Below, one piece after another: positions 1,971 through 5,657 of a DNA stretch of 8,402 bases. The notes beneath the pieces were generated by a model. It saw only the letters and a program-made list of their open reading frames with translations. It ran no database searches and was not told the origin of the DNA. Source of the DNA: an uncultured bacterium. GTDB taxonomy: Bacteria > Eisenbacteria > RBG-16-71-46 > CAIMUX01. Every line of letters begins with the position of its first letter. Within the stretch, counting starts at the first letter, position 1. The stretch lies in contig CAMPIC010000097.1 of NCBI GenBank assembly GCA_946886185.1, forward strand, positions 1-8,402, given 5' to 3'. The position numbers and the translations under genes were made by a program.

Positions 1971-3844
1971 GATCCTGCGGGGTCGCGCCGGGTCCACCCC
2001 CCTCGTTCGAGTCGCTCCTCCGCGAGCTGCCGCTTCTCCTCGAGGATCGCGAACCAGACACGATCTTTGGGCGCCGGCCGGTACTCCTCGTCGATCGGGG
2101 CCCGTCGCGATCCTCTCTGGAACACCATCGGCAGAACATAGGCGGGCAGTTTCTCGTCCGTTTCCTCTTCTCCGAGGATCGGGTCGTCCGCGGGCGGCGA
2201 AGCCGCCTCCATCTCCCAGGACTCGATGGTTGCCAGTCCGCGCCGCAACCGGACGTCCCACAGCTCCAGATCGCGGTCGTGGCCGAAAAGCACGCGGCCG
2301 CCGATTCCGTGCACCATCTCCGCATTGACGCTCGCGTGCCCGCGCTGCAGGCCGACGTAGACGTGCGGAACCTTGAACTCCGTCCGGGCGATGCGCGCGA
2401 AGAGCAGGTTCACTTCCTCATTGCTCGTGGCGGCGATGCAGGCGCGCCGGCTCTCGACCTCGGCCCGGTTCAAGGTGGATTCGCGGAGCCCGCTGCCGAA
2501 GATGACCCGGAAGCCTTCGCGCTGCGCCGCGCTCGCGGCATCGGAGTTCGAATCGATGAAGACGACGTCGCGCCGATCTTCGGAAAGCAGCGTCCCGAGA
2601 GCCCGCCCCAAATCGCTCGCGCCCATGATGGCGAAACCCATGTTGGAAGGACGCCGGACGCCGAGCAGGTCGGCGAGCACTCCGCCGGTGATCCCCTGGA
2701 GCAGCACCGTCGAGGCGATGACGAAGAAGACCGTCGCCTGGAGCTCATGGCCTCCGGGGATTTGATGATCCGAGAGAGTCTGGGCAAACAGCGAGGCAAC
2801 CGCCGCCGCCACGATCCCGCGCGGAGCCAGCCAGGAGAGGAACAGCTTCTCCCGCACGGTCAGGCTCGACCCGACCGTGGAAGCGAGTATGTTGAGCGGC
2901 CGGACCACGAACATGAGCAAAGCCACCGCCGCGATCCCTCTCTTGCCCAGCGCCTGCACGTCCGCGAGGCGTACATCGGCCGCCAGCAGGACGAAGAGCA
3001 AGCCGATGAAAAAGATCGTGAGCTGCTCCTTGAACTCCACCAGGTCGCGCGCCACGCGCGTTCGCGCGTTTCCTACCACCATTCCGGCGACGATCACCGT
3101 TCCGATTCCGCTCTCCTCGAGGAGGAGGTTGCTCAGCTGGAACAACAAGACGGCCCCCCCGAGCACGAAGATGTTTTCCAGGCCCTCCGGGACGAGCTTG
3201 CGGCGCCGCAACAGAAATGCCATCGCGAACCCGCCGATGAGCCCGAAGGACGCTCCCAGCGCCAGCCGCCCAGCCACGCCGAGCGCGGCCAGCCCGAATG
3301 AGCTCTGCGTCGGTTGAATCGCGACCTGCAGAGCCACCACGGTGATGATCGCTCCCACCGCGTCGATGAACACGCCCTCCGCCTCGAGGATCGTGTGGAC
3401 GTTGTACTTCACCCGGATGCGGCGAAGCAGCGGAGTCACCACGGTCGGGCCGGTCACGATCACGAGCGTCCCGAACAGGATCGCGATGCGCCATTCCCAT
3501 CCCAGGACGTAATGGCCGATGAGCAGCCCGCACGTTCCCGTGACGAGCGCCCCGATCGTGATGAGCCGCTGGATCACGCCCGCTTCCCGGCGCAATCGCT
3601 TGAGATTGAGATTCAGACCACCGTCGAAGAGGATGATCGCGACCGCGAATCCGACCAGTCCGCGCAACGCGGGGCGCACGGTGTCGGGATCGATCCATCC
3701 CGCGAGGTCGGGACCGAGACAGACGCCGATCAGGAGCAGGAGGACGATGCCCGGCACGCGGAGGTGCCGGGCCAGGATCTGCCCCGCAACCCCCGCGGCC
3801 ATGGCGAGCGCGATCGTGAATTCCGCACCGAGGTGAGCGGTCAG
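1967..3844 (-). CDS. CPA1/NhaP-type cation:proton antiporter with C-terminal RCK (TrkA-N/TrkA-C) domain
   Basis: Inner-membrane antiporter exchanging Na+ or K+ for H+. With a CTG start it has 625 residues: a membrane domain of roughly 12-13 helices (about 5-395) and a cytosolic RCK domain (about 402-520 plus a TrkA-C-like end to about 610) that usually senses nucleotides or ions. Family marks are F-D-G-G-L-N-L at 73-79, T-G-P-T at 131-134, the E-G-V-F-I-D motif with the likely ion-binding Asp at 161, and A-P-R-G-I-V near 340. The Rossmann glycine motif reads G-A-S-D-L-G, with Ser at one usual Gly, and the acidic residue after beta-2 is kept (F-I-D-S). Start choice: the only in-frame ATG (3802) lies inside the first helix and has no SD. 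A CTG at 3844-3842 overlaps the ferritin stop as CTGA, has GAGGA nine bases upstream, and completes that helix. The stop overlaps the next gene. Na+ versus K+ specificity cannot be read from sequence. Confidence 0.92.
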   Translation of the reverse strand: MTAHLGAEFTIALAMAAGVAGQILARHLRVPGIVLLLLIGVCLGPDLAGWIDPDTVRPALRGLVGFAVAIILFDGGLNLNLKRLRREAGVIQRLITIGALVTGTCGLLIGHYVLGWEWRIAILFGTLVIVTGPTVVTPLLRRIRVKYNVHTILEAEGVFIDAVGAIITVVALQVAIQPTQSSFGLAALGVAGRLALGASFGLIGGFAMAFLLRRRKLVPEGLENIFVLGGAVLLFQLSNLLLEESGIGTVIVAGMVVGNARTRVARDLVEFKEQLTIFFIGLLFVLLAADVRLADVQALGKRGIAAVALLMFVVRPLNILASTVGSSLTVREKLFLSWLAPRGIVAAAVASLFAQTLSDHQIPGGHELQATVFFVIASTVLLQGITGGVLADLLGVRRPSNMGFAIMGASDLGRALGTLLSEDRRDVVFIDSNSDAASAAQREGFRVIFGSGLRESTLNRAEVESRRACIAATSNEEVNLLFARIARTEFKVPHVYVGLQRGHASVNAEMVHGIGGRVLFGHDRDLELWDVRLRRGLATIESWEMEAASPPADDPILGEEETDEKLPAYVLPMVFQRGSRRAPIDEEYRPAPKDRVWFAILEEKRQLAEERLERGGWTRRDPAGS

Positions 3845-4380
3845 CGGCCCAGTTCCTCGAGGAGGCTGACCAGGTCATCCGCGTGCTCTTCTTCCATTGC
3901 GAGAATGCCCTCGAGCATCCTGCGCGTCGTCGGATCGTCATTGCCCATGTACCGGATCATGTCCCCGTAGCTCTCGATCGCGATCCGCTCGGCGACCAGG
4001 TTCTCCTTGATCATGTCGATCAGGTCGCCCCCTTCCACGTACTCGGCATGACTGCGCGAAGTCAGTCCGTCGGGCGAGAAGTTGGGCTCTCCTCCCAGCT
4101 GGACGATACGCGCGGCGATCTCATCGGCATGGGCCTGCTCCTCGTTGGCGTGTTGGAGGAACTCCTGCGCGACGCTCTGCGCATGAATACCGCTCGCCAT
4201 GAAGTAGTGGCGCTTGTAGCGCAGGACGCACACCAGCTCGGTCGCAAGGGCCTCGTTGAGGAGCTTGATTACGATCTCGCGATCGGCTTTGTACCCCTCG
4301 GTGACCGCGCCCTGGTCCAGATGACGGCGCGCGCGCTCCCGAATCGCCTTGATGTCGGTCAAAAACGGTTTGTCGGTCAT
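3841..4380 (-). CDS. Ferritin-like diiron protein (bacterioferritin/Dps-like)
   Basis: 179-residue cytosolic four-helix protein of the ferritin-like superfamily, expected to oxidise and store or detoxify iron. The diiron ligand pattern is complete: E48 in helix A (A-T-E-L), E81-x-x-H84 in helix B (E-E-Q-A-H), E131 in helix C (V-A-E-R), and E163-x-x-H166 in helix D (E-E-E-H). The 33-residue step from E48 to E81 equals that of Escherichia coli bacterioferritin (18 to 51). The N-terminal tail (about 1-35) is charged and polar. The start is ATG at 4380 because a strong AAGGAGG lies five bases upstream; a longer frame from 4482 has no such signal and adds a basic, non-family tail. It lies 162 bases downstream of the peroxiredoxin and overlaps the antiporter by CTGA. 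Whether it forms a bacterioferritin-like cage or a smaller assembly cannot be seen; no obvious haem-ligand Met was identified. Confidence 0.9.
   Translation of the reverse strand: MTDKPFLTDIKAIRERARRHLDQGAVTEGYKADREIVIKLLNEALATELVCVLRYKRHYFMASGIHAQSVAQEFLQHANEEQAHADEIAARIVQLGGEPNFSPDGLTSRSHAEYVEGGDLIDMIKENLVAERIAIESYGDMIRYMGNDDPTTRRMLEGILAMEEEHADDLVSLLEELGR
3854..3858 (-). promoter_or_regulatory. Shine-Dalgarno GAGGA supporting the CTG start of the antiporter
   Basis: On the minus strand GAGGA lies within the last ferritin codons, with a nine-base spacer before CTG at 3844. The alternative ATG at 3802 has no purine-rich sequence in the 15 bases upstream. This site is the main reason to prefer the CTG start. 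Confidence 0.55.
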
Positions 4381-4385
4381 GGATT

Positions 4386-4392
4386 CCTCCTT
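4386..4392 (-). promoter_or_regulatory. Ribosome binding site of the ferritin-like gene
   Basis: AAGGAGG on the minus strand, five bases before the ATG at 4380. It decides the start codon and sits one base downstream of an 8-bp hairpin (4394-4414). Confidence 0.85.
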
Positions 4393-4393
4393 C

Positions 4394-4433
4394 GGTCGCT
4401 TCCGCGAAGCGACCCCGCGACTCTGTTCGCGGA
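4394..4433 (-). promoter_or_regulatory. Two overlapping, mutually exclusive hairpins in the ferritin leader
   Basis: In transcript order the first hairpin pairs TCCGCGAA (4433-4426) with TTCGCGGA (4408-4401) across a 17-base loop. The second pairs GGTCGCTT (4414-4407) with AAGCGACC (4401-4394) across a 5-base loop. Both stems are perfect 8-bp pairings and share bases 4401-4408, so they cannot form together. The second ends one base before the ribosome binding site. No T-tract follows, so this is not a standard intrinsic terminator. The structures are visible in the sequence; a regulatory role is inference. Confidence 0.4.
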
Positions 4434-4483
4434 GCCGTTTGCGGGCTGCGCCCGGCTTCGAATGTACAAAAGAAAGGCGCACC

Positions 4484-4542: not shown

Positions 4543-4998
4543 TTATTGGGCTTCGATTCGCCTGAGGTCCTGCAGGACCTCCGCGGGATGCTCCGCCGGG
4601 TTCACCTTCGGATAGGTCGCTTCGATCTTCCCTTCGGGGTCGATCAAGTAAGATATCCGGCGTGGATGCTCCGCCGTCGGATCTTCGGCTGCTCCGTAGG
4701 CCAATCCGATCTTCCGATCGGTATCGCAGAGCAAGGGGAATTCGAAGTCGAACTTTTCGGCGAACGCCTTGTTCTCCGCTGCCGTGTCGAAGCTGATTCC
4801 CAGGACCTGGCAGTTCTTCTCTTGGAACTCGTCGGCGAGATCGCGGAACCCGCGACCCTCGGCCGTTCAGCCGGGGGTGTCGGCCTTCGGATAGAACCAG
4901 AGCAGGACGTGCTGTCCGCGAAGGTCGGACAACGCGAGCGTGTCTCCTTGATGTGTCTTGACGGTGAAGTCGGGTGCTTTGTCTCCGACCGAGAGCAT
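4543..4998 (-). CDS. BCP/PrxQ-type peroxiredoxin, probable selenoprotein with in-frame TGA (Sec44) at the catalytic position
   Basis: Thiol peroxidase of the bacterioferritin-comigratory-protein family, expected to reduce H2O2 and organic peroxides in the cytosol. Read through the TGA it has 151 residues, normal for the family. It begins L-S-V-G-D-K-A-P-D-F, has the W-F-Y-P-K-A-D-T-P-G segment at 34-43, then TGA as codon 44 where the peroxidatic Cys belongs, then T-A-E and F-R-D at 51-53. P37 and T41 complete the active-site P-x-x-x-T-x-x-C/U pattern, and R113/R114 probably supply the catalytic Arg. The family sequence continues uninterrupted to Q151 and TAA. Residue 49, the usual nearby resolving Cys position of many BCPs, is Arg; C63 and C91 are the only Cys left. 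The start is ATG 4998, with AAGGAGG four bases upstream. The alternative to recoding is a nonsense mutation or base-call error, but the intact downstream frame and SECIS-like hairpin argue for selenocysteine. Confidence 0.88.
4833..4865 (-). promoter_or_regulatory. Bacterial SECIS-like hairpin just 3' of the in-frame UGA
   Basis: Numbering U of UGA as 1, the RNA pairs C5-C8 with G34-G37, G10-G12 with C31-C33, and U15-G20 with C24-A29. Single-base irregularities are C9 and G13/G14 opposite U30, and the apical loop is G21-U22-U23. The core at positions 13-23, GGUCGCGGGUU, aligns with GGUUGCAGGUC of the Escherichia coli fdhF SECIS, including the loop G-U that SelB contacts, two bases nearer the UGA than in fdhF. 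The U equivalent to the bulged U17 of fdhF (here U15) can pair with A29, a difference. The hairpin lies within coding sequence, as in bacterial selenoprotein genes. Pairing was worked out by hand, without energy calculation. Confidence 0.72.
4867..4869 (-). other. Recoded UGA codon, probable selenocysteine 44
   Basis: TGA falls between GGC and ACG in the peroxiredoxin frame. The family consensus at this place is D-T-P-G-Cys-T, so the stop replaces only the catalytic Cys. Ferritin, antiporter and BipA genes in the window end in TGA, so the codon is a normal stop here and recoding must depend on local context. Confidence 0.8.
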
Positions 4999-5002
4999 AG
5001 AG

Positions 5003-5009
5003 CCTCCTT
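5003..5009 (-). promoter_or_regulatory. Ribosome binding site of the peroxiredoxin gene
   Basis: AAGGAGG on the minus strand, four bases before ATG at 4998. It selects this start over upstream in-frame ATGs at 5019 and 5079, which lack comparable sites and would add residues foreign to the family. Confidence 0.8.
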
Positions 5010-5225: not shown

Positions 5226-5657
5226 CTATCCTCCTCCAGTGGGGAGAGGATCGAGGCCGAACACCACCACGGCCACGATGAACCCGAATGTGACGAACAT
5301 GAGCCCCACACCCATGGCGGAAATCGAGCGAACCGGGTTCGGGTCCGCACCCCGGATCGCCAGGATGTCGCTGAATGGGATCGACACGGTGTCGGGATGT
5401 CCGATCAGCTCTCTCGACTCGAACTCCAGAACGAGGGTCGAATCGCGGAGCGCGTGCACCTCGCCCTGATCCTCGGCTCCTGACCGGCGGGCGATCCGCA
5501 CGTTCGTCCCCGGCGGAAAATGCTCCTCGAGCCGGGCCCGATCGATGGTTCCGATCGCGGTGGTGCGGCGCGCGGCGCATCCGCTGCTGAACAGCTCGCT
5601 CACCAGGAGCAGGATCAGGATCAGGGCAAGCGGTCGGGTCCGGAACCAGGCGGCGAT
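5226..5657 (-). CDS. Small probable lipoprotein with SH3-like core and C-terminal membrane segment, unknown function
   Basis: I do not recognise a family. Read from an ATC at 5657 it has 143 residues. Residues 1-26 form a lipoprotein-like signal: basic R-T-R, hydrophobic L-A-L-I-L-I-L-L-L-V, then L-F-S-S-G before C27. The lipobox is imperfect (Ser at -3) and a Glu at 21 is unusual. Residues 47-103 have the alternating beta pattern of a small SH3-like barrel: G-T-N-V-R-I, G-E-V, S-T-L-V-L-E-F, V-S-I-P-F-S-D-I. A hydrophobic segment at 112-135 is probably membrane-spanning, followed by a Pro/Gly tail. Start problem: a stop lies two codons upstream and no ATG, GTG or TTG precedes the signal sequence. 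GTG 5603 would remove the whole signal, while the ATC has AGGAGG nine bases upstream. The gene is divergent from BipA and 227 bases from the peroxiredoxin. It is probably real; start and localisation are inference. Confidence 0.7.
   Translation of the reverse strand: MAAWFRTRPLALILILLLVSELFSSGCAARRTTAIGTIDRARLEEHFPPGTNVRIARRSGAEDQGEVHALRDSTLVLEFESRELIGHPDTVSIPFSDILAIRGADPNPVRSISAMGVGLMFVTFGFIVAVVVFGLDPLPTGGG

Follow-up and report, generated by a model that had tools for sequence, protein, structure and literature searches.

A probable selenocysteine-containing peroxiredoxin of the BCP/PrxQ type with an in-frame TGA at its catalytic codon

Known selenocysteine peroxiredoxins and the gene in the window

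Peroxiredoxins (Prx) with selenocysteine (Sec) in a TxxU motif have been in print since 2005. In the excerpted parts of a study of the Sargasso Sea set, 43 sequences of this kind are assigned to COG1225 (PMC1088965), and one row of a GOS table gives 253 Sec-containing Prx as pfam00578 TxxU (PMC2398784). Excerpts of two reviews list the Sec Prx as COG1225 (Bcp) with a TxxU motif (PMC9312934) and as pfam00578 TxxU (PMC13188914). Another table lists 12 bacterial Sec-Prx and gives five events for them in what appears to be its Cys-to-Sec column (PMC1794560). As far as the excerpts go, four of these sources (PMC1088965, PMC9312934, PMC2398784, PMC13188914) agree with the original prediction that selenoperoxiredoxins are an established class. 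The gene described here, from a window of 8,402 nucleotides (the whole stretch of DNA that was analyzed), very probably adds a member to that class. A literature search that mostly covered papers outside subscription returned no Eisenbacteria or Eiseniibacteriota paper naming selenocysteine and no Eisenbacteria paper naming a selenoprotein.

The features of the gene are as follows.

4543..4998, minus strand: BCP/PrxQ-type peroxiredoxin of 151 residues with a single TGA read through (profile matches, homologues, AlphaFold model)
5003..5009, minus strand: Shine-Dalgarno-like AAGGAGG, 4 nt 5' of the ATG at 4998 (sequence)
4867..4869, minus strand: TGA in frame as codon 44, occupying the peroxidatic site of the PxxxTxxU/C motif, putatively read as Sec
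4852..4854, minus strand: Arg codon 49, at +5, with a middle base that is paired in the SECIS to the wobble position of the Arg52 codon
4726..4728, minus strand: codon 91, Cys, candidate resolving residue (homologue alignment)

The peroxiredoxin frame (minus strand, 4998-4543) has 152 codons from ATG to TAA. Its sole internal stop is the TGA at codon 44 (4869-4867), beyond which 107 codons follow. The original prediction was therefore correct in the coordinates, strand and frame of the gene, in the position of the TGA and in the 107 codons leading to a normal end. At the composition of the window a run of 107 open codons has a chance of about 0.03, so the openness of the frame is by itself weak evidence.

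The read-through protein matches the AhpC-TSA profile (PF00578) with 130 bits, the cut-off being 26. Its best NCBIfam model is bcp NF006960 at 112.4 bits, under the cut-off of 140, and it scores 99.7 bits against the PrxQ model NF053650, under the cut-off of 260. We therefore name the protein BCP/PrxQ-type and assign it to neither equivalog. The BCP-type identity first proposed for it is upheld by the AhpC-TSA score and the PxxxTxxU motif, though not by the bcp model, whose cut-off was missed. An AlphaFold model of the Cys form has a mean pLDDT of 96.9, and the closest solved structure is 3drn Bcp1 (TM 0.91). In sequence and predicted fold (TM 0.88-0.91) the window protein is like the Cys BCP/PrxQ proteins 3drn (Bcp1), 5epf (BcpB) and 5iiz (X. 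campestris PrxQ). Unlike them, it is predicted to carry Sec instead of the peroxidatic Cys, lacks a Cys at +5 and has Cys91.

With the Sec Prx of COG1225, as the excerpts describe them, the window gene shares the PF00578 family, a Sec codon within T-x-x-U (T41-P-G-U44 here) and a bacterial SECIS directly downstream. It differs in its probable host, Candidatus Eisenbacteria, and in the lack of a +5 Cys. The host is suggested by the TypA protein of the window, which shares 97% identity with an unnamed protein and 90% with one named Candidatus Eisenbacteria, while matches near 75-80% carry mixed names that include Eisenbacteria and Acidobacteriota. In twelve of the relatives' genomes the best TypA identities were 44-57%, and none of the twelve was taken for an Eisenbacteria genome. 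This likeness is one of family and motif, the named reference WP_011365628.1 lying outside the alignment. A further Sec-peroxiredoxin is PrxU of Eubacterium acidaminophilum, which we take to be the protein represented by NCBIfam NF040737. The window protein, likewise a predicted Sec peroxiredoxin, scores 56 bits against a cut-off of 270 for that model and is therefore not a PrxU.

Recurrence of the TGA among relatives

To follow codon 44 beyond the window, genome contigs were scanned once, which gave 213 relatives, and the best 80 of the 213 loci were used. Codon 44 could be aligned at 83 places in these 80 loci and is TGA at 58 places (57 loci), TGC at 23 and TGT at two; the 25 TGC/TGT rows take in a distant paralogue in L028. 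The TGA thus lies at the site of the peroxidatic Cys, as was originally claimed, and the alignment of Cys and Sec forms that had been proposed as a check reveals an exchange of TGA and Cys at one codon. The TGA form is found in loci labelled Acidobacteriota, Myxococcota, Binatota, Rokuibacteriota and Planctomycetota, among others.

A protein search returned 4770 homologues at E <= 0.001 among 4791 candidates. The best 120 of the 4770 are 58-66% identical to the window protein across 93-99% of its length, and residue counts refer to these 120 listed homologues. P37, T41 and R114 are invariant in all 120; at position 44, 112 have Cys and eight have Trp. The Trp entries are database proteins P0004, P0016, P0017, P0019, P0034, P0035, P0051 and P0066; they are probably Sec-Prx whose TGA was translated by gene callers under code 4.

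When the 43-residue front piece ahead of the TGA was used as the query, 58 proteins were found and all 58 stop at ...DTPG. This search takes only proteins 0.55 to 1.75 times the query length and so excludes full-length forms; it demonstrates that cut-short entries ending at one residue exist, not that every entry is of this kind. The claim that annotation loses the gene accordingly holds for the 58 short database entries ending at the TGA site and is not shown for every entry. One cluster, P0242, whose representative is identical to the front piece of the window, is listed with 23 contigs.

These counts bear directly on whether the gene is a pseudogene or a sequencing error, that is, a TGC or TGT Cys codon mutated or misread as TGA. 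A single base separates TGA from either codon, and most of the listed homologues (112/120) do have Cys at this position. The same TGA, however, stands at 58 of the 83 aligned places, so the TGA in the window is no isolated error. The 58 short front pieces that all end at one residue and the 23 contigs of the cluster identical to the window also argue against a mutation or misreading, as do the family sequence kept after the TGA and the covarying hairpin described below. We regard a pseudogene or an error as very improbable.

A quick tree was computed from 84 Prx rows, including the very long row of the L028 paralogue; it has few columns and many of its forks are open. The window falls in a group of 28 Sec and two Cys rows (support 91, unstarred), and the row nearest to it by path is the Cys form of L020. 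Sec/Cys changes on this tree number at least 11, compared with 21.7 when the labels are shuffled, and its starred branches force at least five switches.

Several relatives are of interest in their own right. A contig labelled Planctomycetota carries a tandem pair of Sec-type Prx (L079:3503-3925 and 4001-4435) with TGA at codon 44 in both, and one contig, L056, encodes a Sec-type Prx (3731-4165) together with a Cys-type Prx (1654 onward). The Sec-type Prx of L006, a MAG titled Klebsiella pneumoniae, groups with Binatia and deltaproteobacterial sequences, and the MAG is probably mislabelled. Plasmid records with a Prx match number 482, all less than 60% identical, and the five listed ones are annotated bcp. 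Two stretches in viral contigs fitted a search pattern, neither of them encoding a relative.

A covarying hairpin downstream of the TGA

A bacterial SECIS lies directly 3' of the UGA and has a small apical loop containing a guanosine, according to the excerpted text of PMC1088965. The hairpin in the window fits this rule, as it comes right after the UGA and has a G in its small apical loop. This SECIS, the absent Cys at +5 and the probable host lineage were not part of the original prediction.

4839..4857, minus strand: bacterial SECIS core with an 8-bp stem and a GUU loop at 4849-4847 (fold, covariation, covariance model)
4833..4865, minus strand: longer hairpin predicted from the window sequence alone, inside a 63-nt fold of -24.7 kcal/mol

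The stem of the SECIS begins 12 nt past the T of the TGA. The folding energy of the hairpin has a z-score of -2.13, with three of 200 shuffles equally stable; among 2000 synonymous recodings, 150 fold equally well and 56 retain all eight pairs. The energy alone is only modestly unusual and is weak evidence for a SECIS, and covariation was therefore used.

The TGA-type alignment has 59 rows, 56 of them distinct, and 91.3% of its cells are paired. Two-sided changes number 17 in these rows against a shuffled mean of 2.8, none of 500 shuffles reaching as high, and they are confined to three of the eight pairs. Sliding the partners along the TGA-type alignment brings pairing down to 35-51%. Two pairs, 15-29 and 16-28 by alignment column, are broken in 18 and 10 of the 56 TGA-type rows, respectively. 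The same columns in 24 Cys-type rows (an alignment that omits L028:8246) are 66.1% paired, with one two-sided change and no excess over shuffles.

The SECIS pair that stands out most clearly is the one between codon 49 (middle base) and Arg52 (wobble base). The CGN codons for Arg52 pair with codon 49 in 50 of 53 cases among the TGA-type rows and in 13 of 22 among the Cys-type rows. The codon for Gly50 is GGG at 51 of 54 glycine codons in TGA-type rows versus two of 16 in Cys-type rows, a constraint on synonymous codon choice that belongs to the TGA forms.

A covariance model was trained on the TGA-type rows with the window left out (58 rows). It gives the SECIS of the window 61.3 bits, a score that reflects in part coding sequence shared with the Cys-type loci too and, slightly, the TGA codon; elsewhere in the window no place scores above 10.0 bits. 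The 58 training places score from 35.4 to 64.6 bits, and the best of 23 Cys-type loci reaches 30.4 bits. An Rfam search of the window at E up to 5 returned two matches to snoRNA families, both far under the gathering scores, which we take as chance.

Decoding of the UGA and the putative enzyme

The genomes of the 80 loci were searched for selB and tRNA-Sec. A selB over the curated cut-off is found in 54 of the 57 TGA-form genomes and in 11 of the 23 genomes with TGC/TGT only; for a tRNA-Sec scoring 60 bits or higher the counts are 47 of the 57 and 10 of the 23. One or the other is present in 56 of the 57 TGA-form genomes versus 12 of the 23 (Fisher p 1.3e-6, which overstates independence, as the genomes are related to each other). 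The 60-bit line was set after the scores were seen, because five of 14 control genomes pass Rfam's own tRNA-Sec cut-off of 47 bits; at that lower cut-off there is a match in 43 of 50 and 21 of 30 genomes. Two of the 14 controls have selB. L034 is the one TGA-form genome that yielded no selB over cut-off and no strong tRNA-Sec. The genomes of L052 and L056 have a tRNA-Sec and no selB over cut-off; L052 (CP070734.1), a single-chromosome record, combines its Sec-type Prx with a tRNA-Sec of 71 bits.

The UGA might instead be a true stop giving a 43-residue product, or be read as Cys or another residue without Sec machinery. The support for Sec machinery does come from the genomes of relatives and not from the organism of the window, as this alternative would allow. 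The short product, however, would be without an active site, and family identity is maintained over the 107 codons past the UGA. The covariation and the synonymous constraint are particular to TGA forms, and selB or a strong tRNA-Sec accompanies the TGA in all but one of the TGA-form genomes, both of which speak against a stop as well as against readthrough by other means. There is accordingly very little to recommend either version.

An alternative genetic code, with TGA as Trp or Gly throughout the genome, is the least credible explanation: Trp does occupy position 44 in eight of the best 120 homologues, probably through the code 4 calls, but the antiporter, ferritin and TypA genes of the window use TGA as their terminal stop and none has it internally, indicating a genome that is not recoded, and Trp or Gly would moreover destroy the peroxidatic residue and leave the SECIS with no purpose. 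We rejected a pseudogene, a sequencing error and an alternative code on the basis of the recurrence of the TGA, the ends of the front pieces and the TGA stops of the neighboring genes.

The selenocysteine reading put forward in the original prediction is thus favored by the TGA/Cys exchange, by covariation specific to the TGA forms, by selB or tRNA-Sec in the relatives and by the TGA stops of the neighbors, which together argue for a working selenoprotein. We are confident that the gene encodes a Sec-containing thiol peroxidase of the BCP/PrxQ type whose UGA at codon 44 is read by SelB and Sec-tRNA. For the organism of the window itself we infer Sec insertion, as we do the chemistry and the reductant. 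SelB and Sec-tRNA would decode the UGA under the direction of the hairpin that starts 12 nt downstream. The predicted product has 151 residues, with Sec in P37-x-x-x-T41-P-G-U44 and the conserved R114. By analogy with the peroxiredoxin family, the selenolate of Sec44 would reduce hydrogen peroxide or organic peroxides and be converted to a selenenic acid.

A resolving Cys at +5 occurs in many, not all, BCP/PrxQ members. Position 49 is Cys in 87 of the 120 listed homologues and Arg in the window protein, and among the TGA-type places of the relatives' loci 24 of 58 have Cys there. Since this common resolving position is Arg49 here, oxidized Sec44 may be restored by thiols, with thioredoxin acting either directly or via Cys91. 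Cys91 is common to 113 of the 120 listed homologues; it is about equally common in Cys forms, which counts against a role as resolver. The other cysteine, Cys63, is matched in none of the 120. Positions 49 and 91 both lack Cys at four of the 58 TGA-type places, so a mechanism with one Sec must be possible in some of these proteins. More tentatively, and less likely than not, the gene may represent a BCP/PrxQ branch in which Sec works without the +5 Cys, either using Cys91 as a new resolver or having its selenenic acid reduced directly, in Candidatus Eisenbacteria, a group for which the literature searched gave no report of Sec use.

On the same strand as the Prx gene, and about 160 nt further downstream, the window encodes a ferritin-like protein (3841-4380, minus strand; PF00210, 95 bits). 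The two genes could plausibly form an iron-storage and peroxide-defense pair. This pairing was not seen in the 80 loci: six window proteins compared by tblastn with these loci (within 4 kb of the Prx) had no match, the Prx query giving 83 in the same database. Just upstream of the ferritin start, at 4395-4413, lies an inverted repeat whose 8-bp arms match perfectly and are 3 nt apart; it is perhaps an operator or an RNA hairpin. A 125-aa ORF at 5226-5603 on the minus strand matches nothing in Pfam or NCBIfam; by eye, a hydrophobic segment lies close to its C-terminus.

The class of Sec Prx is itself already known. This gene is a clean case of one that annotation can cut at the catalytic codon, where the 58 short entries end. 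With its coupled codons 49 and 52 it is well suited as a natural test of the limits that a SECIS in a coding region sets on the active-site helix of the enzyme.
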